This document shows positions 11,164 to 51,175 of a stretch of 52,134 nucleotides of DNA, in pieces. Each line of letters begins with the position of its first letter. Positions within the stretch are counted from its first letter, which is position 1. The DNA lies in assembly GCA_004297985.1 (NCBI GenBank), contig SCRA01000001.1, positions 1 through 52,134 of the forward strand. The letters are read 5' to 3'. This stretch comes from a bacterium. Its GTDB lineage: Bacteria; Vulcanimicrobiota; Vulcanimicrobiia; Vulcanimicrobiales; SCRA01. Both the position numbers and the translations under genes were made by a program. The notes under the pieces are model-generated. The model was not told the origin of the DNA. It made no database searches and saw only the letters and a list, made by a program, of their open reading frames with translations.

Positions 11164-12423
11164 TTATGAGGCGGTCACCGCCCCCTTCACGCCGAGGGCC
11201 TTCTGCGGAGGCCGGGTGATCAGCGGCAGAATGATCGAGAGCAGCAGCATGATCGCGATGGGCACCAGCGCTCCGTGATAGGAGCCGGTGAGATCGCGGA
11301 TGCGGCTGCCGAAGAGCGGGCCGGCGAGGCCCGCGACGCCCCAGGCCGTAAGCACCCAGCCGTAGTTGACGCCCATATACTTCACGCCGAAGTAGTCGGC
11401 CGTGAATGAGGGCATGGTTCCAAAGCCTCCGCCGTAGCAGAGGAGCACGATCGAGAAGAGCACCAAGAAGGCGGCGGGTGAGTGGCCCGTGACGTTGAGC
11501 ACCAAGAAGACCACCACCTGTACGCCGTAGATCAGCCCGTACGCCCAGCGGCGGCCGATGCGATCGCTGACGGTGCCCCAGAACCAACGGCCGATGCCGT
11601 TGAAGATCGACATGATGCTGACCAGGCCGGCCGCCGCTACCGGCGTCATGCCGGCGAGCTCGACGCCCATCGGCGCCGCCTGCGAGATCACGAAGATCCC
11701 AGCGGTGACGTTGAGGAACAGCATGCCCCAGATCGCATAGAACTGCCAGCGCCCGAACATCTCCTCAGGCGTGAAATCGTATCCCGAGGACTTGGCGGTC
11801 TGCACCGCCGACGGCGTCCAGCCGGGGACGGTGTAGCCCTCCGGCGGGTTGCGCAGGAGCGATGCGAAGATCAGACCGATGATCAGGTAGATGATCCCCG
11901 CGTAGAGGAACGTGTGCAGCACACCAACGTGGCGAATCAGCGGCTGCAAGACCGGGCGCGCGAAGACGAAGGCGCCCAGACCGAAACCCATCACCACGAA
12001 ACCGCTGGCAAAGCCGCGGCGATCGGGGAACCACTTGGTCACCATAGTGACGGCGGAGATGTAGACCATTCCGAGGCCGAGTCCGCCGATGACGCCGTAG
12101 GTGAGGTAGAGCCAGGGCCAATTCAACGCTCCGGTACCTAGCCCGGCGAGGATGTTCCCCACCGACCAGAAGATCACGCCCGCGATGGTCACGGTGCGGG
12201 GGCCCGCGCGGTCCTGCCAGCGGCCGCCGATCACGGCGCCGACGCCCAGGAAGAAGATGGCGAGTGCGAACGCCCACGACGTCGTCGTTGCGTTCCAGCC
12301 GAAGATCGTTTCGAGAGGCTTGACGTGGACGCTCCACGCATAGACCGTTCCGATGGTCATGTTCACGATGGCACCCGAGATCGCCATCCACCATCGGTTC
12401 GGCGTCGCAGCAGTCGATGACAT
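11164..12423 (-). CDS. MFS transporter, oxalate/formate antiporter (OxlT) family
   Basis: A 419-residue 12-helix carrier. The N-terminal helix region (MTIGTVYAWSVHVKPLE) and the A-motif-like loop GGRWQDRAGPRTV, repeated in the second half as GTVSDRIGRRWAYG, place it in the OxlT-like MFS group. Such carriers exchange small carboxylates across the inner membrane. Its gene is 15 nt after nrfD and in the same operon as formate dehydrogenase, so formate or a related monocarboxylate is the likely cargo (inference; the family also moves oxalate and others). The start ATG has GGAGG 8 nt upstream. Confidence 0.88.
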   Translation of the reverse strand: MSSTAATPNRWWMAISGAIVNMTIGTVYAWSVHVKPLETIFGWNATTTSWAFALAIFFLGVGAVIGGRWQDRAGPRTVTIAGVIFWSVGNILAGLGTGALNWPWLYLTYGVIGGLGLGMVYISAVTMVTKWFPDRRGFASGFVVMGFGLGAFVFARPVLQPLIRHVGVLHTFLYAGIIYLIIGLIFASLLRNPPEGYTVPGWTPSAVQTAKSSGYDFTPEEMFGRWQFYAIWGMLFLNVTAGIFVISQAAPMGVELAGMTPVAAAGLVSIMSIFNGIGRWFWGTVSDRIGRRWAYGLIYGVQVVVFLVLNVTGHSPAAFLVLFSIVLLCYGGGFGTMPSFTADYFGVKYMGVNYGWVLTAWGVAGLAGPLFGSRIRDLTGSYHGALVPIAIMLLLSIILPLITRPPQKALGVKGAVTAS

Positions 12424-12438
12424 GCGATGTCCTCCGTG

Positions 12439-13461
12439 TTACTCCGGTTGACGTAAGGCGGCACGCGGGTCATCGGCCGAGGCCCTGCCCGCTTCGATCA
12501 GGGACTTCCGCAAGACGTATCCGCCGTAGAGCGTGAGGCCCGCGGCGACCAGCGTCTTGACAACGTGTCGTTTGGCGGCGTGGTTGGGCTTGACGAAGAG
12601 GCTGGCGAGGTTGAGCAGAGCCGGAACGGCGATGCCGCCGATCAGCGTGTTCGCGCGTAGACGCTGCCCCGTCTCGCCGCCGAAGAGCACCTGCCCGGTC
12701 TCGCCCGCCGACGAGGCGTAGTCGACCAGGAGCGCGCCCTCGGTCAGTGCAGCGACGAACTCGATCCGCTCCAGCTTGGTGATGGTCTTGGCCGAGCCAT
12801 TGCCTAGTGCCAGCAACGCTGCTTGTGCGGCGCAGGCCGTGGCGACGGCGGAGCAGACGAAGATCGCCGGAATCTGGCGGCGCCCGATGTTCCAGACGGG
12901 GACGGCGGTGGCGGCGATCAGCACGCCGGTGTATGAGCCGGTGAAGGCGGCGGCCAGGGCGTGCACGAGATTACGCAGACCGCGTGGCAACAGTCCCCCG
13001 AGCAGCCACGGTACGCGCCCGCGCAGCTCCTCGAGCGCAGCGATACCCGAGAAGGCGGAGAAGGTGATGAGCGACCAGACGCCCACCGACATCGGCGACT
13101 TCAGCTTGAGGATGCGCATCATGTGCAGAAAGCGGTCAGGGCGGCCCAGGTCCTTGATGAGCAGCACGGGGCTGACGGCCGCGCCCACCAGCGCCAGCCA
13201 GCGCCCGTTGCGCACCACGCTGCGGTCATCGTCGTCGCCGAAGGTGTCGGCCGCCGCGGCTAGGATCGCGCTCCCGCTCATCAGCCCGCCGACGTAGAAG
13301 TACCAGATGATCTCCCAGCGCCAGTGCGCGCCGCGCAGCACGGGATGGTCGTAGTACGAGCGCTGCTGGCGGCCGAAGCCGCCGTCGCCGCGCGCCAGAC
13401 TCGCCGCGACGGCGTCGGGAGTGATCTGCGCGATGTCGCCGTGCGCGGTATCGGCCATCAA
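12439..13461 (-). CDS. NrfD/PsrC-type membrane subunit of formate dehydrogenase
   Basis: A 340-residue polytopic protein with about eight to nine hydrophobic segments and the NrfD-type N-terminal half (WRWEIIWYFYVGGLMSGSAI, then DLGRPDRFLHMMRILK and SPMSVGVWSLI). NrfD subunits anchor molybdoenzyme/iron-sulfur complexes and pass electrons to the quinone pool without haem. Its start overlaps the fdhB stop by 4 nt, so it is the third subunit of the formate dehydrogenase. No cytochrome b (FdnI-type) gene is present, in line with an NrfD-linked enzyme. Confidence 0.92.
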   Translation of the reverse strand: MMADTAHGDIAQITPDAVAASLARGDGGFGRQQRSYYDHPVLRGAHWRWEIIWYFYVGGLMSGSAILAAAADTFGDDDDRSVVRNGRWLALVGAAVSPVLLIKDLGRPDRFLHMMRILKLKSPMSVGVWSLITFSAFSGIAALEELRGRVPWLLGGLLPRGLRNLVHALAAAFTGSYTGVLIAATAVPVWNIGRRQIPAIFVCSAVATACAAQAALLALGNGSAKTITKLERIEFVAALTEGALLVDYASSAGETGQVLFGGETGQRLRANTLIGGIAVPALLNLASLFVKPNHAAKRHVVKTLVAAGLTLYGGYVLRKSLIEAGRASADDPRAALRQPE

Positions 13462-14207
13462 CGGCTCCTGAACGCCTGCATCGCCACGACCGCCAGCGCC
13501 GCTGTGGCCAGGAAGCCGCTGAGATAGGCCACGGGCTGGTAGGTCGAGGGGAGCACGGGCTTAGGCGGCAGGTTGAAGACTTCGGGACGGTCGGTGATGA
13601 GGAAGAAGGCGTTGAGATCGCCGACGGAGGTGTCCTCGTCGACCCCGTAGAGCCGCGCCGGAACGTTACGTGCCAAGAGCTCCTCGGTGCGCCGTTTCGC
13701 GCGTTCCTTGAGCTTCTCGACGGGCCCGAACTGGATCGAGTCGGTGGGGCAGGCCTTCGCGCAGGCGGGCTCGATGCCGTCCTTCATGCGGTCGTAGCAG
13801 AGCGTGCACTTCTGTGCGACGCCTTGCTCTTCCTGAATGGCGACGACGCCGAAGGGGCATGCTGGGACGCAGTAGCCGCAGCCGTTGCAGATGTCAGGCT
13901 GCACGTAGACGGCGCCGAACTCGTTGCGAATGATGGCCCCGGTGGGGCAGGCTTCCATGCAGCCGGCGTGCGTGCAGTGCTTGCAGACGTCGGACATCAT
14001 CACCCAGCGCGACTCGGCTGGGTTGATGCGATCGAACTGCTCGACGAAGTCCACGTGGCGCCACGTCGAGGCCGACAGCCGCCCCGTGTTGTCGTAGGAG
14101 TTGCCTGAGAAAGCGTAGCCGTCGGAAGGCAGTTGGTTCCACTGCTTGCAGGCCACCTCGCACGCCTTGCAGCCGATGCAAAGCGTGACGTCGGTGAAGA
14201 AGCCCAT
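13458..14207 (-). CDS. fdhB: formate dehydrogenase iron-sulfur subunit
   Basis: A 249-residue ferredoxin-like subunit with the four cysteine groups expected for four [4Fe-4S] clusters: CIGCKACEVAC (10-20), CKHCTHAGCMEAC, CNGCGYCVPAC and CTLCYDRM..CAKAC. The last ~25 residues (VAYLSGFLATAALAVVAMQAF) form a C-terminal membrane helix, as in FdnH. It carries electrons from FdhA to the NrfD subunit. I chose ATG 14207: the alternative ATG at 14222 and all upstream in-frame sequence lie in, or arise from, the repeat cluster, and GGGGAAGAG precedes 14207. The 250-bp gap to fdhA is filled by that repeat. Confidence 0.95.
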   Translation of the reverse strand: MGFFTDVTLCIGCKACEVACKQWNQLPSDGYAFSGNSYDNTGRLSASTWRHVDFVEQFDRINPAESRWVMMSDVCKHCTHAGCMEACPTGAIIRNEFGAVYVQPDICNGCGYCVPACPFGVVAIQEEQGVAQKCTLCYDRMKDGIEPACAKACPTDSIQFGPVEKLKERAKRRTEELLARNVPARLYGVDEDTSVGDLNAFFLITDRPEVFNLPPKPVLPSTYQPVAYLSGFLATAALAVVAMQAFRSR

Positions 14208-14219
14208 CTCTTCCCCACT

Positions 14220-14470
14220 CATTCCGCTGCGCTCCATTCGTGGGGGCCCCGATACTTTGAAGGTTCCGGGGCACTCGCCCCGGGTTGTATGTTCATTCCG
14301 CTGCGCTCCATTCGTGGGGGCCCCGATACTTTGAAGGTTCCGGGGCACTCGCCCCGGGTTGTACCGATTCGCTCACCGTACAGCGCTCCGTTCGTGGGGG
14401 CCCCGATGCTTTGAAGGTTCCGGCGCACTCGCCCCGGGTTGTGCAGAGTCGCTCACCGTGCTGCGCTCCA
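14220..14470. repeat. three tandem ~74-80 bp repeats with internal hairpins
   Basis: Three copies of a unit fill the space between fdhA and fdhB. Copies 1 and 2 (from 14221 and 14295) are identical over about 68 nt, with a 74-bp period. Copy 3 starts in the unit at 14385 and differs at a few bases. The core runs from GCTCCATTCGTGGGGGCCCC to GCCCCGGGTTGT. Each core holds the palindrome GGGGCCCC and the hairpin CCGGGG-CACTCG-CCCCGG (14266-14283 in copy 1), which loses one pair in copy 3. A second sub-repeat, TCGCTCACCGT.C.GCGCTCC, occurs twice at 14369-14468. It looks like a dispersed palindromic element that multiplied here; its presence elsewhere in the genome cannot be tested. Confidence 0.9.
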
Positions 14471-14473
14471 TCG

Positions 14474-17400
14474 TCATCGTTGATCCTCGTGTCGTTGCGT
14501 GACCCGGGAGGCTGCCATGATCGTCTCGGCCGACACGATCTCGGTGGAGATGGCTTCCGAGCCGGACGCGGTTTCAACCGCGCCCGGGCGCGTCGGCGTG
14601 CCCAGCGGGTTGCGCTGCCCCAGCGGCACGTCGTCGTCGGCCGCGAAAGGATGGGCAGCACTGCGGCGCCCGGGGCGGATGTTGCAAGTGAAGGCCTTGC
14701 CTTCGTGGATCGAGACGTTGGGATCGGCCACCATGGGCGGTAGGTCGTTCGGCGTATCGCCTGTGACCACGCCTTGCGTCCCCCAGTGCCACGGAAGTCC
14801 AATTTGATGCACAAAGCGCCCTTTGCCCAGGCGGATCGGCTGCATGCGCCCGGTGACCAAGGCCTTCGCCTCAACCTCCGCGCGCGCCGTCTCGATCGTC
14901 ACCCACTCCCCGTTGCGGATGCCGCGCTCCACGGCAAGCTCCGGCGAGATCTCACAGAAGAGCTCCGGCTGCAGCTCGGCCAGCCACGGCAGCCAGCGCG
15001 ACATCGCGCCGCTCAAGTGGTGCTCGGTGAGGCGGTACGTGGTGATGACGTACGGATAGCGCGGATCACCGATATCGTGGTACGGGTTGTCGCGACGGCG
15101 CCACTGCTTGAGCACGGGATTGTACTGTGCGTGAGGATAGAGTGCGTTGCCGACGGGGGACTCTTTAGGTTCGTAGTGCGTGGGCATCGGTGCGTCGACC
15201 GTCCCTGTCGGCGCGAAGAGCTGAGCCACGCCATCAGGGTTCATGATGAAGGGCGAGGCGCCGTCGTGCGCATCGACCCCGCTGCCTTTGGCGTTCGCGG
15301 GCGTGCTAGGAGCTTTCGTGAGCGGGAAGTCGGGCACGTCGTAGCCCACCCACTTGTTCTGCGCCTCGTCCCACCAGACGTACTTCTTGCGCTCGCTCCA
15401 TGGCTTGCCCTCGGGGTCGGCCGAGGCGCGATTGTAGATTTGACGGCGGTTCGAGGGCCACGACCAAGCCCACTCCAGGGAAACCCACTGATCGCCCTTG
15501 CGGCGGCGTGTCAAGTTCTCCTCAGGCGCTGGATACATGCCGGAGTAGATCCAGCAGCCGCAGGCGGTCGATCCATCGTCCTTGCACTCCGCAAAGCCCC
15601 TGAGTTGCTCGCCCGTGTCGGTGCGATAACCGTTCATCTCGCGCATCACCGCCTCGACGTCCGGGTCGCCCAATGCGCGCTCGTGCGCATCGGGGTGGTC
15701 GTAGTCCCAGGTCATGTCGAGGATCGGGCGATCGCGCCGCTGCGTGGACGAGGCGTAGAGCTCCTTGAGGCGCTTGCCCAATTGATAGACGAAGCCGAGG
15801 TCACTGCGGCAGTCGCCGGGCGGGTCGACAGCCTTCTCGTGAAACTGAACCAAGCGCATCGTGTTGGTTAACGTCCCAGCTTTCTCGGCGATGCAGGCGC
15901 AGGGCATGAAGAAGACTTCCGTGGGGATCTGCTTGGGATCCACGCCCTCGCGCTTCCAGAACGCGGCCGACTCGATCTCAAAGATGTCGCGTACCACCAG
16001 CCAATCGAGCTTGGCCATCGCGTTGCGCTGGAACTCGGCATTCTGTCCGCCGACGGCGGGGTTCTGGCCGAAGAGCAGCATGCCGCGCACCGTGCCGTCC
16101 TTCATGCTCACGAACATCGGCATATGCGAATGGTCGCCGGTGTTCTTCGGTAAGTAGTCATAGGCCCAGTCGTTCTCCGCGGTGGCCGCGTCACCGTACC
16201 ACGCTTTCATGAACGAGACGGCGTACTTGGGGAAGTTGTTCCACCAGCCCGTGCGCGGGGTCTGGTGCTTACACCACGTCACGAAATCGGACTCGCCTTT
16301 CTCGAGCGTGGGCGCCTTCAAGTATCCCGGAAAGAGATCGTAGAGCGTAGCGTTGTCCGTCGAGCCTTGGATCGAGGCATGGCCGCGCAGCGCCATCACA
16401 CCGCCGCCCGGGCGCCCCATGTTGCCCAGCAACGACTGCAGAATGCCGCCGGCGCGGATGTTCTGCACGCCCACGCTGTGCTGCGTCCACCCCATGGCAT
16501 AGCAGAAGACCGCTGTCTTCTCGCGGCCGCTATTGGTGCACAGCAACTCGGCCAGCTCCAGGAATTTCTCCTTGGGCGAGCCGCAGATGCGTTCTACCAT
16601 CTCGGGCGTATAGCGCGCGTAATGGCGGCGCATGATGTTGAGCACGCAATGCGGGTTCTGCAGCGTGGGGTCGCGCTTGGGGCGCGGCGCGTCATTCTCG
16701 CCGCCGGGCTCCAGTTCGTAGCGCCAGGTCGACAGGTCGTAGGTGCCGCTATCGGCGTCCAAGCCGCTGAAGACGCCGTCGAGGTCCTCACTGTCACGGT
16801 AGTCATCGTTGACGATGAATGACGCGTTGGTATAGCTGAGAACGTACTCCTTGAAGTATCGCTCGTGCTCCAGCACGTAATTGATCAGGCCGCCCAAGAA
16901 CGCGATGTCCGTCCCAGAGCGGATCGGTACGTGCAGGTCCGCCATGGCGCTGGTGCGCGTGAAACGGGGATCGACGTGAACGACTTTCGCGCCTTTGGCT
17001 TTCGCCTTCATCACGAAGCGAAACCCTACGGGATGGCACTCGGCGAAGTTGCTGCCCTGGATCACGATGAGGTCGGAGTTCTGAAGATCCATCAAGAACG
17101 TGGTCGCGCCGCCGCGGCCGAAGGAGGTGCCTAGACCAGGCACCGTCGAGCTATGTCATATTCGCGCCTGGTTCTCGACGAAGGGCATGCCAAGGCTCCT
17201 GAAGAGCTTGGCCATGAGGTAGTTCTCTTCGTTATCCAGGGTGGCGCCGCCCAGCGATGCCAGAGCCATCGTGCGGTTGACGCGTCGCCCTTGCTCGTCT
17301 TCCTCTTGAAACGTTGCATCGCGCGTCTCCTTGACGCGTTGCGCGATGCGCTCCATCGCCCAGTCCAGCGAGACATCTTGCCATTCGGTGGCTCCCGGCG

Positions 17401-17743
17401 CGCGGTATTTACAGGTCTTCCAGCGTGCGGGGTTGACGTGGAGCTGAAACGTTGCCGCCCCCTTTGGGCAGAGCGTTCCGCCGTTGATGGGTGAGGCGGG
17501 ATTGCCCTCGATGTCGATGATCGTGTTGCCGCGATGGTAGACGAGCGTGGCGCAGCCTACGGCGCAGTAAGGGCAGACGCTCGGCGTGACCTTGGCATCC
17601 GCAGTGCGAGGGCGCAACTCGCGCGAACGCTTGCTCATGGGATTGGGCAATATGCCGACGCGCTCGCGCAAGACATGAGCGGCACGGTCGAAGAGCTGTT
17701 GAAGACCGGCCCCGGATCCGAGTGTGTCCTTCCTGGTTGCCAT
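14474..17743 (-). CDS. fdhA: selenocysteine-containing formate dehydrogenase catalytic subunit
   Basis: One reading frame of 1089 residues interrupted by a single in-frame TGA (17156-17158), read here as selenocysteine at residue 196. The context NQARI-U-HSSTV..SFGRG matches the catalytic Sec site of FdnG/FdhF, and a bacterial SECIS follows. Cysteines 57, 60, 64 and 92 (CPYCAVGC..LCPKG) bind a [4Fe-4S] cluster, and the rest is the bis-MGD molybdo/tungsto-enzyme fold ending in a molydopterin-dinucleotide-binding domain. It oxidises formate to CO2, passing electrons to FdhB and NrfD. Start ATG 17743 has GGGGGG upstream; ATG 17639 is an alternative. Unlike FdnG I see no twin-arginine signal. Automated calling would split it into two genes, ending at 17156 and starting at 17143. 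Confidence 0.95.
17126..17158 (-). promoter_or_regulatory. bacterial SECIS element with the Sec TGA codon of fdhA
   Basis: Read on the minus strand: TGA (17158-17156), 11 nt, then GGTGCCTGGTCTAGGCACC (17144-17126). The last part folds into a perfect 7-bp stem, GGTGCCT/AGGCACC, with a GGTCT loop. The E. coli fdhF SECIS has the same 11-nt spacing and a GGTCT-containing apical loop, which SelB recognises. This both explains the stop and predicts SelA/SelB/SelC/SelD genes elsewhere in the genome; none lies in this window. Confidence 0.93.
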
Positions 17744-38465: not shown

Positions 38466-39856
38466 TTCGCAGCGTGTGCGGTGCGCTCGCGCTGCTGCTC
38501 TTGTTCGCGATCGTCGCGCCTTCGCGCGCAGGCGTGCCGCACGGCAATCGGATCGATCTCGACGTGCACGATGCCGAAGCCGTCGACGTCCTGCGCCTCT
38601 TGGCGGTGGAGTCGGGAGCGAACCTCGTTGCCGACGCCAGTCTTCCACGCGTGCGCCTCTCGCTGCGCTTGCATGGGGTGACGCTCGAGCGTGCCTTGGA
38701 CGCGGTCGCGAGCGCAGGCGGTCTGGCGATCCATCGCGATGGCGACGTGATCGTCGTCGGCGGCGTGGAGGCGATGAATCGCGCCTACGGCGACGACGGC
38801 GGCGGGTTGGAGACGGCCGTCCTGCGTTTGGAGAACGCCCATCCGGTGGACGTGGCTGCGGGCTTGCGCGCAGCGCTGCCCGTGGGAACGGTCGTTGTTC
38901 CCGATGGGAGAAGCGGGACGCTGGTGGTCGAGGGCGCGCACGGCGTGGTGGAGCGTGCGCGGCACCTGGCGGCGACGTTGGACGTGGCGGTGGTCGGGGG
39001 CGGAGGTGCACTGGGCACGGCAAGCGCGATTCCGCTGAAGTACCTGCGCCCCAGCGAAGTCACCACGCAGCTCAAGGGCATGCTCCCCGATGGAAGCTAC
39101 CTTGCCGACGACCGGCAGAACGCCGTCGTGGTGTCGGGCGGCCCGCTCTTGGCGGCCCGTGCGCGCGCCTTGCTCTCCGCGCTCGACGTTCCAGCGCCGC
39201 AAGTCACCTTCGACGTGCGCGTGCTCGACGTGACCCCGCGCGACCGCACCCAGAACATCGGCGTGCTCTGGGGATCGCTTGGCGCAGGGGCCTTCTCGCC
39301 GGGGCAGATCGACCTCTCGACGACCAATGGGCGCGCCTTCACCGCCGCCGGCGCCGCGCTCGACGCGCGCATCGGCGCACTGGTCTCCACGGCGCAAGCT
39401 CGCGTGCTGGCAGAGCCGAAGATCACGGTGCTCAACAACCACGAAGCCTCGTTGCTGGTGGGCGAGACCTATCCCTTGACACAGATCGACTTGCGTACGG
39501 GGCAAGTGAGCGTGCAGTATCTGGACATCGGCGTGAAGCTGCGCCTCACGCCCACGATCGGCGCCGGCGGCACGATCGTCGCGGAACTCCATCCGGAGTA
39601 CAGCACGGTGATCGGCAACGCGGGCGTGGGCAACTATCCTATCATCGGCAACCGCAAGATCGATGCGGTTCTGCGCGTGCGCAAAGGCGAGGCGATCGTC
39701 CTGGGCGGCATGCTGGAGGAGATCGACTCGCAAACCGTCTCCAAGGTACCCGTGCTGGGGGACGTGCCCGTCTTCGGCGGTCTCTTCCGAAACCGCAGCG
39801 CCCACGAGCGGCGCGATGAAGTCATCTTCGTCATCAGCCCGCACATCGTGGAGTAA
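38462..39856 (+). CDS. pilQ: secretin (PilQ/GspD family)
   Basis: A 464-residue outer-membrane channel subunit. A signal peptide (~1-22) is followed by an STN-like N0 domain (IDLDVHDAEAVDVLRLLAVESGANLV), N1-type domains (AIPLKYLRPSEVTTQLKGMLP), and the secretin core: VTFDVRVLDVTPRDRTQNIGV, LAEPKITVLNNHEASLLVGE, a gate region, then VLGGMLEE..VPVLGDVPVFGGLFRNR. It is shorter than typical PilQ (no AMIN domains seen). It implies an outer membrane in this organism. Start GTG 38462 overlaps the PilP-like stop. Pili, DNA uptake or secretion remain open. Confidence 0.92.
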   Translation: MIRSVCGALALLLLFAIVAPSRAGVPHGNRIDLDVHDAEAVDVLRLLAVESGANLVADASLPRVRLSLRLHGVTLERALDAVASAGGLAIHRDGDVIVVGGVEAMNRAYGDDGGGLETAVLRLENAHPVDVAAGLRAALPVGTVVVPDGRSGTLVVEGAHGVVERARHLAATLDVAVVGGGGALGTASAIPLKYLRPSEVTTQLKGMLPDGSYLADDRQNAVVVSGGPLLAARARALLSALDVPAPQVTFDVRVLDVTPRDRTQNIGVLWGSLGAGAFSPGQIDLSTTNGRAFTAAGAALDARIGALVSTAQARVLAEPKITVLNNHEASLLVGETYPLTQIDLRTGQVSVQYLDIGVKLRLTPTIGAGGTIVAELHPEYSTVIGNAGVGNYPIIGNRKIDAVLRVRKGEAIVLGGMLEEIDSQTVSKVPVLGDVPVFGGLFRNRSAHERRDEVIFVISPHIVE

Positions 39857-39918
39857 GGGCTGTGCCCGCCGCGCAGCCGGCGGCGGGGAGACATGCGCGC
39901 CGCGTCGAAACGCCAGCC

Positions 39919-40284
39919 ATGCAGTTCGAGGAGTTCTGGCCTCGGTATCTTCGGGCACATGCCAACCCAAGCACGCGCACCGTCCACGTCGCCGGGATGC
40001 TCGTCGGCGTCGGCATCGCGGTGTATGCCGTGGCTTTGCGCCGCCCGGCCTTGCTTGCGGCGGCGCTAGCCGCCGGTTATGCCCCGGCCTGGCTCTCGCA
40101 TCTGTTGATCGAGCGTAACCGCCCGGAGACATTTCGCGAGCCTGTGCTCTCGCTCCAAGCGGACTTCGCCATGGTCGCGCACGCGCTGCGCGGCACCCTT
40201 GGCCGCGAGCTCGACGGCGCACTCGGCAAAGCGGGCTCCGCCGCCGGCATCGGCCCCGCCGATGATCTCTACACCACGCGGTAG
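39919..40284 (+). CDS. Mpo1-like (DUF962) membrane protein
   Basis: A 121-residue DUF962 protein. The conserved core is visible: AHANPSTRTVHVAGML with the histidine after NP..R, two hydrophobic segments, then LSHLLIERNRPETFREPVLSLQADFAMVAHALRG. Yeast Mpo1 is an iron-dependent dioxygenase that alpha-oxidises 2-hydroxy fatty acids; most bacterial members are untested. ATG 39919 is chosen because similarity begins there; the frame is open from GTG 39862. It is 9 nt before aroC and probably co-transcribed. Confidence 0.88.
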   Translation: MQFEEFWPRYLRAHANPSTRTVHVAGMLVGVGIAVYAVALRRPALLAAALAAGYAPAWLSHLLIERNRPETFREPVLSLQADFAMVAHALRGTLGRELDGALGKAGSAAGIGPADDLYTTR

Positions 40285-40293
40285 GACTCCAAC

Positions 40294-41457
40294 ATGTTTC
40301 GCTACTTAACGGCCGGCGAGTCGCACGGCCCGGCACTGGTCGGCATCCTCGACGGCATCCCCGCGGGGCTGCGCCTCGACGTCGATCGCATCAACGCAGC
40401 GCTGGCGCGCCGCCAAGGCGGCTACGGCCGCGGCGGGCGCATGAAGATCGAGAAGGACGCCATCGAGTTCCTTGCAGGCCTGCGCGGCGGCACCACGCTG
40501 GGCTCGCCGCTCTGCGTGATGGTGCGCAATCGCGACTTCGAGAACGTGCGCGCCCTCATGGATCCGCTCACCGGCGCCGGCAAGCCCATTACCAACCCGC
40601 GCCCGGGGCACGCCGATTTCGCCGGCGCGTTGAAGTTCCGTCACCGCGATCTGCGCAACGTGCTCGAGCGCGCCAGCGCCCGCGAGACGGCGTTGCGCGT
40701 GGCGCTTGGCGCCATCTGCGCGCAGCTGCTCGAGCGCTTCGGGGCGCGCATCGCTTCCTACGTCACGCGCATCGGGCCCGTCGAGGCTCCCGTGTGCGAA
40801 GAGTTCCCGGCGCCCGAAGTCGTCGACGCCTCCGACGTGCGCTGCCCGGACGAGGCGGCCGGTGCACGCATGATCGCTGAGATCGATGCGGCCAAGGCCT
40901 CCGGCGATACCCTGGGCGGCCAATTCGAAGTACGCGTCACAGGCATGCCGGTGGGCATCGGCTCGAACCGACAGCCGGCGGAGCGCCTCGACGGCGTGAT
41001 CGCCGGAAGCGTCATGGGGATGCAGACGGTACGCGCCGTGGAGATCGGCGCGGGGGCGGCCGTCGCCGCCACACCGGGCTCGCAGGCGCATGACACGTTC
41101 GCCATCGACCAAGGCCAGCTCGTGCGCGGCTCCAACCGCGCCGGCGGCATCGAGGGGGGCATGTCCAACGGCCAGGACATCATCGTGCGCGTCTCCGTGA
41201 AGCCGATTCCCACGCTGATGAAGGCGCTCCCCTCCGTCAACCTGCATGAAGGCCAGACCGCCCCGGCCGCCATCGTGCGCAGCGACGTCTGCGTGGTTCC
41301 CGCCGGCTCGATCGTCGGCGAGGCGATGGTGGCGCTCGCCCTGGTCGCGCCCTTCCTCGACAAGTATGGCGGCGACTCGATGGAGGAGGTGCTCGACAAC
41401 TTCCGCCGTTCGCAGGAGGCCGCCGCGGGGATCTTCCCCAACGTCGCGCTCTCGTGA
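40294..41457 (+). CDS. aroC: chorismate synthase
   Basis: A 387-residue FMN-dependent enzyme for the last shikimate step, EPSP to chorismate. Motifs: TAGESHGPALVGILDGIPAG at the N-terminus, RRQGGYGRGGRMKIEKD, RPGHADFAGALKF, RASARETALRVALGA, GGIEGGMSNGQDI and the closing KYGGDSMEEVLDNF. Length fits the bacterial family. The final codons overlap aroK by 4 nt (GTGA). Confidence 0.98.
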   Translation: MFRYLTAGESHGPALVGILDGIPAGLRLDVDRINAALARRQGGYGRGGRMKIEKDAIEFLAGLRGGTTLGSPLCVMVRNRDFENVRALMDPLTGAGKPITNPRPGHADFAGALKFRHRDLRNVLERASARETALRVALGAICAQLLERFGARIASYVTRIGPVEAPVCEEFPAPEVVDASDVRCPDEAAGARMIAEIDAAKASGDTLGGQFEVRVTGMPVGIGSNRQPAERLDGVIAGSVMGMQTVRAVEIGAGAAVAATPGSQAHDTFAIDQGQLVRGSNRAGGIEGGMSNGQDIIVRVSVKPIPTLMKALPSVNLHEGQTAPAAIVRSDVCVVPAGSIVGEAMVALALVAPFLDKYGGDSMEEVLDNFRRSQEAAAGIFPNVALS

Positions 41458-41954
41458 CGCCGCTGGTCCTGATAGGCTTCATGTGTGCCGGGAAGAGCAC
41501 CGTGGGGCGCCTCTGCGCGCAGCGCCTTGGCTTGCCGTTCGTGGATACCGATGATGAGATCGAGCGCCTCCACGCACCCATCGACGAGCTTTTCACGGCA
41601 CGCGGCGAAGTGGAGTTCCGGCGCATCGAGCGCGAAGTCGTCGACGCCGTGCTGCAGCGCGAAGGCGTGGTGGCGCTGGGTGGCGGCGCCTTCGCCCAGC
41701 CCGGAGCCGCAGAGGCGATCCTGGCGCGCGGCCGCGTGGTTTGGCTGCGGGTAGCTCCCGAGCACGTGCTGGCGCGTGCCGGCGACCGCGTGCGCCCGCT
41801 CTTGGGCACGGCACCCACGCGCGAGGGTGTCGAGGAGCTGATGCGCGCGCGCGATCCGCTCTACGCGCGCGCCCATCTGAGCGTCGGCGCCGGCGGTGAT
41901 CCGGCGGCGGTCGCGAAGCGCGTGTGCGCATGGTACGCGGGAGTGAGGTCGTGA
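41454..41954 (+). CDS. aroK: shikimate kinase
   Basis: A 166-residue kinase with the Walker A motif GFMCAGKSTVGR (~6-17), the DTDDEIER shikimate-binding segment, FRRIEREVV, and GGGAFAQP. It phosphorylates shikimate at O3. GTG 41454 lies in the aroC stop overlap, and its own stop overlaps the aroB GTG, giving an uninterrupted aroC-K-B translation chain. Confidence 0.96.
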   Translation: MTPLVLIGFMCAGKSTVGRLCAQRLGLPFVDTDDEIERLHAPIDELFTARGEVEFRRIEREVVDAVLQREGVVALGGGAFAQPGAAEAILARGRVVWLRVAPEHVLARAGDRVRPLLGTAPTREGVEELMRARDPLYARAHLSVGAGGDPAAVAKRVCAWYAGVRS

Positions 41955-43000
41955 GCGGCGAGCCGGTGTTGGGCTATCCCATCGTTGTCGGCGCGAAGGC
42001 GCTCGATCGCGTCGCCGCCATTGCGCGCGAGCGAGGCTATCGCCGTGCCGTCGTGCTGGCCGACGCCAACGTGGAGAGCCATGCGCGCCGTGCCGCGGCG
42101 GGCTTCGGCGGCGAGGCGCCGTTGCGCACCTTCGTGCTGGGCGAGGAGCGCAAGACCTTAGCGACGCTCGGCGCCGTCTACGACGCGCTGGCCGAGCTGG
42201 AAGTCGATCGCGGGACGTTAGTCGTCGGAGTGGGCGGCGGCGTCGCCGGCGATCTCTTCGGCTTCGCCGCCGCCACCTTCATGCGCGGCGTGCCGTTCCT
42301 CAACGTGCCGACCTCGCTCGTGGCGATGGTCGACGCGGCCATAGGCGGCAAGACGGCCGTCGATCTGCCGGCGGGGAAGAACCTCGCGGGCGCCTTCGCC
42401 GATCCCGTGGCCGTCGTCTCCGACGTGCGAACGTTGGAGACGCTGCCGCCGGCGCAGATCCGCGAGGGTCTTGGAGAGATGGTGAAGCACGCCGTCCTCG
42501 ACGGCGAGGAGACTTTCGCCCAACTCGAGCACTGGGCAAGCGAGCCGTTCGAGCGCTGGCCATGGGCGGAGCTGATCGAGCGCAACGTGCGCGTGAAAGC
42601 GGCGGTGGTCGCGCGCGACCGTCTCGAACATGGCGATCGCGAGCTGCTCAACCTCGGGCATACCTTCGCGCACGCCTTCGAACGCGTCTCGCACTACGCG
42701 CTCTCGCATGGGAGCGCCGTAGCCGTCGGCCTGCGCGCGGCGGGGATCGCGGCGCGGAGTTGGGGGCCGTGGCCGGAGGGTGACCAGCGCCGGGTCGTTG
42801 CCCTCCTGCGGGCACTGGAGCTTCCCACGTCGTATCCCGGCCTCGACGTCGACGGCGTGCTGGCCGCGATGCGCGTGGACAAGAAGCGCCGGGAGGGACG
42901 CCTGAGGTTCGTTCTGCCGCGCGCACTGGGCGACGTGGTGAGCGGCGTCGAACTCGATGACGCGATGGTACGCGGGGCGGTGGAGCGCTGTACGCGGTAG
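41951..43000 (+). CDS. aroB: 3-dehydroquinate synthase
   Basis: A 349-residue NAD- and Zn-dependent enzyme forming 3-dehydroquinate from DAHP. Motifs: VVGVGGGVAGDLFGFAAATFMRG, VPTSLVAMVDAAIGGKTAVDL, GLGEMVKHAVL and NLGHTFAHAFE with a zinc histidine. GTG 41951 is chosen since it overlaps the aroK stop; an extension to 41924 adds only a few unconserved residues. Confidence 0.97.
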   Translation: MSGEPVLGYPIVVGAKALDRVAAIARERGYRRAVVLADANVESHARRAAAGFGGEAPLRTFVLGEERKTLATLGAVYDALAELEVDRGTLVVGVGGGVAGDLFGFAAATFMRGVPFLNVPTSLVAMVDAAIGGKTAVDLPAGKNLAGAFADPVAVVSDVRTLETLPPAQIREGLGEMVKHAVLDGEETFAQLEHWASEPFERWPWAELIERNVRVKAAVVARDRLEHGDRELLNLGHTFAHAFERVSHYALSHGSAVAVGLRAAGIAARSWGPWPEGDQRRVVALLRALELPTSYPGLDVDGVLAAMRVDKKRREGRLRFVLPRALGDVVSGVELDDAMVRGAVERCTR

Positions 43001-49679: not shown

Positions 49680-51029
49680 GTGGCTGAGAACCAGCGAATC
49701 TTCGGTACCGACGGCGTGCGCGGGGTAGCCAACGCCGACCTCACGCCGGAGCTGGCGTTTCGCGTGGGCCGTGCCGCCGCCGTCGTGCTCGCGCATGAAG
49801 TCGGTGCCGGCCGTCCGATCGTGGTGGGACGCGACACGCGCATATCCGGGCCGATGCTCGAAGCGGCATTGGTGGCCGGCATATGCTCGGCCGGGCGCGA
49901 TGTTCTCTTGCTCGGCGTGCTTCCCACGCCCGCCGTCGCGCTGATCACGCGCCTCTCCGGTGCCGCAGCCGGAGCCATGATCTCCGCCTCACACAATCCC
50001 ATCGCCGATAACGGCATTAAACTCTTCGGCGCCGACGGCTTCAAGCTCTCGGATGCGCTCGAGGCGGAGATCGAGTCGGACATCGCCGCCGACAGCGGGC
50101 CGCGCCCCACGGGTCTGGATGTCGGCGGTGTCGAGGCCGCTCCGGAGCTGCAGAATCGCTATCTCGAGCACTTGGTGGACCACGGGTCCCCGCTGACCGG
50201 CTTGGAGATCGTGGTGGACGGAGCCTTCGGCGCAGCCTACCGCATGGGACCGGAGGCGCTGCGGCGTCTGGGTGCCGTGGTGCATCCGATCAACTGCGAG
50301 GCGGACGGGGCGCGCATCAACGTTCTCTGCGGCGCGACTCACCTAGAGCCGCTGATCGGCGAGGTTCGCCGGCGCCCCGGGAGCCTCGGCGTGGCCTTCG
50401 ACGGCGATGCCGATCGCGCGCTCTTCGTGGACGAGGAGGGGCACGCGGTCAACGGCGATCAGGTTCTCGCCATGCTCGCCTCGCAGATGGCGCGCGAAGG
50501 GGCCCTGCCCAGGGCGACCGTCGTAGCGACGGTGATGTCCAACGTCGGATTGGAGCGCGCGCTCGACGGGCTGGGCCTGCGACTCGAGCGCACCGCCGTG
50601 GGCGATCGCTACGTCCTGGAGCGCATGCAGGCTGGCGGCCACCCCCTGGGCGGCGAGCAGTCGGGCCACATCATCGATCTGCGCCGCAACTCCACCGGCG
50701 ACGGGCCGATGACAGCCGTCTCCGTCTTCTCGCTGATGGCGCGCTCGGGTGGACGTCTGACAGACCTGGCCGCGTGTGTGAAGACCTATCCGCAGGTGCT
50801 GGTCAACGTTCGCACGCACCGCAAGGACCTTCTCGAGCACGCCGAGGTCCGCCGGCGCATCGTCGCCGTCGAGAGCGCGCTGGGAACGGAGGGACGCGTC
50901 TTGGTGCGCCCCAGCGGAACGGAGCCCCTCCTGCGCGTGATGGTCGAGGGCCCCGACCGCGGCGCGGTGGTGCGCATGGCGGAGGAGATCGCCTCGGCCA
51001 TCCGGACCGCCGGCGATGGTGAGCTGTAG
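49680..51029 (+). CDS. glmM: phosphoglucosamine mutase
   Basis: A 449-residue enzyme converting glucosamine-6-phosphate to glucosamine-1-phosphate, for peptidoglycan precursors. Seen: RIFGTDGVRGVAN, the phosphoserine loop MISASHNP (Ser104), the metal site FDGDADR, GGEQSGHI and the phosphate-binding VRPSGTEPLLRVM. GlmM also binds and inhibits CdaA in Firmicutes. The start is GTG 49680, 17 nt after cdaR. Confidence 0.97.
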   Translation: MAENQRIFGTDGVRGVANADLTPELAFRVGRAAAVVLAHEVGAGRPIVVGRDTRISGPMLEAALVAGICSAGRDVLLLGVLPTPAVALITRLSGAAAGAMISASHNPIADNGIKLFGADGFKLSDALEAEIESDIAADSGPRPTGLDVGGVEAAPELQNRYLEHLVDHGSPLTGLEIVVDGAFGAAYRMGPEALRRLGAVVHPINCEADGARINVLCGATHLEPLIGEVRRRPGSLGVAFDGDADRALFVDEEGHAVNGDQVLAMLASQMAREGALPRATVVATVMSNVGLERALDGLGLRLERTAVGDRYVLERMQAGGHPLGGEQSGHIIDLRRNSTGDGPMTAVSVFSLMARSGGRLTDLAACVKTYPQVLVNVRTHRKDLLEHAEVRRRIVAVESALGTEGRVLVRPSGTEPLLRVMVEGPDRGAVVRMAEEIASAIRTAGDGEL

Positions 51030-51175
51030 CACGAATCCGCTCGCGCTCTGCCGATAAAAGAAGGGAACGTTGGCCGAAAGGAGAGAAACCGGGGACAAGG
51101 CTGGGGCTTGCTCCCCTTCCGAGTTCATCGTGTGTTTGCTCGCCGCGCTCCCCCAAGGGAAGCAGGCTCGTCAGA

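Follow-up and report, generated by a model that had tools for sequence, protein, structure and literature searches.

A formate dehydrogenase gene with an in-frame TGA predicted to encode selenocysteine in a Candidatus Eremiobacterota genome

The window analysed here, a stretch of 52,134 nucleotides, carries fdhA, the gene for the catalytic (alpha) subunit of a formate dehydrogenase (17743-14474, minus strand). Its start codon, an ATG at 17743, has the motif AGGGGG upstream, its terminal stop codon is a TGA (14476-14474), and the 1089-residue product contains a predicted selenocysteine (Sec) at residue 196, encoded by an in-frame TGA (17158-17156, minus strand). When this codon is translated as a residue, the frame is otherwise open up to the terminal TGA, and the peptide across the site reads VENQARI-U-HSSTVPGLGTSFGR; standard ORF calling cuts the gene into two ORFs (17854-17156 and 17143-14474). 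The original prediction had described two in-register frames joined by this single TGA, and both its coordinates, which are exact to the base, and the translation bear it out. The internal TGA is followed by an 11-nt spacer (CATAGCTCGAC, 17155-17145, minus strand) and then by a hairpin (17144-17126, minus strand), whose arms GGTGCCT (17144-17138) and AGGCACC (17132-17126) form a perfect 7-bp stem closed by a GGTCT loop (17137-17133).

Downstream of fdhA, on the same strand, lie fdhB, encoding a 4Fe-4S beta subunit (13458-14222, minus strand; start at the ATG at 14222 or at 14207, in an ORF open to 14348), and a gene for an NrfD-like membrane subunit (12439-13461, minus strand; PF03916, 74.8 bits). 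The fdhB product matches the Pfam family Fer4_11 and scores 175.9 bits against TIGR01582, below the cut-off of 334.7. They are followed by a gene for an MFS monocarboxylate-type transporter (11164-12423, minus strand; NF049980, 420.6 bits), which possibly belongs to the fdh operon. Of 110 homologous fdh loci, 104 include a beta homologue, 92 an NrfD homologue and 23 a homologue of the transporter near fdhA.

Several further elements were recorded in the window. Between fdhA and fdhB, a GC-rich repeat of 74-80 nt with the internal palindrome CCGGGGCGAGTGCCCCGG is present in about three tandem copies (14219-14471), which extend to the fdhB start codon. This repeat gives 28 matches over many contigs of the genome; a similar but longer array occupies the same spot in one homologous locus (L018) and none is found in another (L019), a distribution that points to a dispersed REP- or MITE-like family, apparently still changing within the genus. 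A gene of the aldehyde ferredoxin oxidoreductase family (PF02730/PF01314; 18147-19934, plus strand) is divergent from fdhA and, among the homologous loci, adjoins it only in the same genus. An Rfam scan of the window returned just two elements: a c-di-AMP riboswitch (RF00379; 51167-51309, plus strand; 95.5 bits) and, where the contig begins (1-90, plus strand), part of a 5S rRNA, which would fit a break of the assembly at an rRNA operon.

Profile searches place FdhA firmly among the Sec formate dehydrogenase alpha subunits, with full-length scores of 1522.2 bits against NF041513 (formate_DH_Act; curated cut-off 1400) and 1104.5 bits against TIGR01553 (curated cut-off 814.2), together with the in-frame TGA. 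NF041513 is an actinobacterial-type family that shares the stop codon and hairpin layout with fdhA and differs from it in sequence divergence only (about 52-58% identity to loci outside the phylum of FdhA). The best solved relatives in a PDB search were the Desulfovibrio gigas enzyme (1h0h, the best-scoring structure, 868 bits), a group of Sec-containing formate dehydrogenases, and E. coli FdnG (1kqf), a member of TIGR01553 that matches FdhA along its full length (residues 47-1023, 796 bits). Residue 196 aligns with the non-standard residue X of the QARIXHS motif of 1h0h, which we take to be the known Sec158, so the TGA sits where the original prediction had put it, at the selenocysteine position of formate dehydrogenases (NQARI-U-H). 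E. coli FdnG has Sec at the equivalent catalytic position. It is exported by the Tat pathway and its gamma subunit, FdnI, is a cytochrome b; FdhA differs in that no twin-arginine signal is apparent within its first 40 residues, and in its locus the gene beside that of the beta subunit encodes the NrfD-like protein (PF03916) in place of the cytochrome b of the FDH-N complex (FdnGHI). We infer that a complex of alpha, beta and NrfD-like subunits would face the cytoplasm and be linked to quinone.

A stop codon in a catalytic position could also mark a true nonsense mutation, or a sequencing or assembly error where the gene really has a Cys codon, and errors are possible in principle in a draft assembly of 90 contigs. 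The frame past the TGA is nevertheless intact and conserved, and TGA and hairpin recur both in relatives and over several phyla. A Cys-bearing close relative, named beforehand as evidence for an error, was looked for, and every homologue examined keeps a stop codon, including two near relatives (96% and 90% identical) that retain the TGA and the hairpin. All 30 loci examined in the phylum, partial ones included, have TGA at residue 196. Likewise, the Sec site is occupied by a stop codon in all of the 80 closest homologues from named genomes (TGA in 64, TAG in 16), and the layout of stop codon and hairpin was seen in named loci from Actinobacteria, Myxococcota, Chloroflexi and Acidobacteria. 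With TGA and SECIS element both conserved, the explanation by mutation or error is refuted, and we regard it as extremely improbable.

The 16 TAG homologues (L049, L057, L064, L067, L068, L070, L075, L079, L081, L083, L086, L087, L090, L093, L094 and L095) come from Geodermatophilaceae-type actinobacterial genomes and keep the hairpin. It is already known that Geodermatophilaceae decode UAG as Sec with a tRNA-Sec bearing a CUA anticodon (PMC5330540). Their Sec formate dehydrogenases thus resemble the one described here in the homologous gene and the hairpin, and differ in pairing TAG with a CUA anticodon, where the present genome pairs TGA with UCA.

The original prediction had placed a 7-bp hairpin with a GGTCT loop 11 nt past the TGA, and the coordinates proved exact. 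The spacing equals that of E. coli fdhF, in which the SECIS element likewise begins 11 nt after the codon. Folded in isolation with ViennaRNA, the hairpin forms 8 bp with a 3-nt loop at -13.3 kcal/mol. A published bSECIS model (PMC13188914) calls for an apical loop of 3-9 nt on an upper stem of 4-16 bp, a G as first or second loop nucleotide, a distance of 16-37 nt from UGA to the apical loop, and a minimum free energy of at most -7.5 kcal/mol. The fdhA element agrees with all four rules, with 7 bp and a 5-nt loop (or 8 bp and 3 nt as folded), the loop sequence GGTCT, a distance of 18 nt (11 + 7) and the energy given above. Thermodynamics alone sets the hairpin only weakly above chance, its folding energy being marginally special (z = -1.77 against shuffled sequences). 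When the window was scanned loosely for stem-loops, a TGA coincided with a hairpin 50 times in all, so neither a hairpin nor its energy is proof by itself; in this simple scan, no other coincidence had a read-through as long as that of fdhA.

It is covariation, not energy, that lifts the hairpin above chance. In an alignment of 44 homologous elements, 95.5% of stem cells are paired, and the covariation score is 0.329 as against 0.153 +/- 0.015 after shuffling; none of 500 shuffles scored as high, a count that is not a p-value, as the 44 elements are phylogenetically correlated. Sliding the structure by 1-3 columns in the same alignment lowered the best score to 0.071. The fourth pair occurs as G-C, C-G, U-A and A-U while the encoded protein stays VPGLG or VPSLG. 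These patterns provide strong evidence that an RNA structure is under selection inside the coding sequence.

Beyond the locus, the original prediction implied a SelB/SelC system and had named the absence of selB or tRNA-Sec as the observation that would count against it; the genome contains selA, selB, selC and selD, all with products above their curated cut-offs. On contig C72, selA (39328-40674; SelA, 552.9 bits) adjoins selB (40713-42557; SelB, 303.7 bits, with N- and C-terminal regions present), and the same contig carries the gene for tRNA-Sec (selC, 50956-51045; 71.7 bits) with the anticodon UCA. The selD gene lies on contig C7 (42767-43690; SelD, 380.6 bits) and has an in-frame TGA of its own at the catalytic Cys/Sec site (MTIAKSIRLTAYSSCAGUASK; L099:1531), followed by a hairpin that differs from the SECIS element of formate dehydrogenases. 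The site matches UxxK, the Sec motif listed for SelD (PMC13188914), and SelD is therefore predicted to be a selenoprotein itself. A covariance model built from formate dehydrogenase SECIS elements found only the fdhA site in the genome, the next match having E = 3, so that no second convincing element of this type was detected. Judged by its gene content, the organism has all parts of a bacterial Sec system, and no fewer than two selenoproteins are predicted for it.

The same genes bear on whether the TGA might be decoded as an amino acid other than Sec, through a genome-wide reassignment of the code 4/25 type or simple readthrough. Such decoding would account for a frame that is open across the TGA; against it stand the normal termination of fdhA on TGA, the presence of SelA, SelB, SelD and a tRNA-Sec with a UCA anticodon, and the location of the codon at the known Sec position in the 1h0h alignment. 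A genome-wide code change was rejected, and we give the whole explanation hardly any credence. Equally remote is the prospect that the fdhA contig is a contaminant, foreign to the genome in which the Sec genes were found. A draft in 90 contigs leaves room for such an error, but the estimated contamination is 0.67%, genomes of the same genus carry near-identical fdh loci (one of them, G037, apparently the genome of locus L019, also has tRNA-Sec), and the 74-nt repeat of the fdh locus is present on many other contigs, including C72 with selA, selB and selC. Contamination was rejected on these grounds.

The internal TGA of fdhA is thus almost certainly read as selenocysteine, as far as the genome can tell. 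SelD would make selenophosphate and SelA would convert Ser-tRNA-Sec into Sec-tRNA-Sec; SelB, bound to the hairpin 11 nt past the UGA, would then bring Sec-tRNA-Sec to the ribosome, where the codon would be decoded as Sec and termination avoided. We hold with high confidence that FdhA is a bis-MGD formate dehydrogenase, with either Mo or W, whose catalytic residue 196 is Sec inserted through SelA, SelB, SelD and the hairpin, and which probably belongs to a membrane complex of alpha, beta and NrfD-like subunits. Such a membrane-attached complex would presumably feed electrons taken from formate into the quinone pool. FdhA has been described as the bacterial selenoprotein family with the widest distribution (PMC13188914), and fdhA is an ordinary Sec formate dehydrogenase gene, with the standard arrangement for this enzyme and a textbook mechanism.

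The host is an uncultured groundwater bacterium. Its RpoB is 78-87% identical to sequences from Eremiobacterota and 55-62% identical to those of other phyla, by which the genome is assigned to Candidatus Eremiobacterota as a draft close to the bins FW021_bin.42 and bin.74 (FW021, the source of these near-relative bins, is presumably a well at the Oak Ridge site). Among 121 genomes of the phylum, 90 (74%) have a tRNA-Sec above the cut-off and 60 a formate dehydrogenase alpha subunit (E <= 1e-150). Seven genomes with the dehydrogenase but no detected tRNA-Sec were checked, and selB was over the cut-off in six, which makes assembly gaps or filter losses the likely cause. A close relative, G036, is a 90%-complete draft with selB and no detected tRNA-Sec. 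Two genomes that are 96% complete (G056 and G117) carry a TGA-containing fdhA and selB and lack a tRNA-Sec under the strict filter, which may reflect assembly gaps or a divergent tRNA-Sec.

The original prediction suggested that the use of Sec in this lineage may be little documented, and the open-access literature is consistent with this: we found no paper there that names both Eremiobacterota and selenocysteine, an absence that is no proof, and a paper on the phylum that was consulted mentions neither formate nor selenium. The use of Sec in Candidatus Eremiobacterota does not seem to have been reported before. We lean towards the view that Sec decoding is widespread, probably ancestral and undescribed in the phylum, and kept largely by the Sec-containing formate dehydrogenase and SelD in organisms that are commonly regarded as aerobes. 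The breadth of this usage is the sole mildly new element, and the fdhA finding is mainly a record of an under-documented lineage. Gene callers that take TGA only as a stop split fdhA and drop its catalytic residue, and so conceal formate oxidation in a phylum that is poorly represented in culture. With tRNA-Sec in 74% of the sampled Eremiobacterota, selenium supply is likely to be relevant to their physiology and cultivation.
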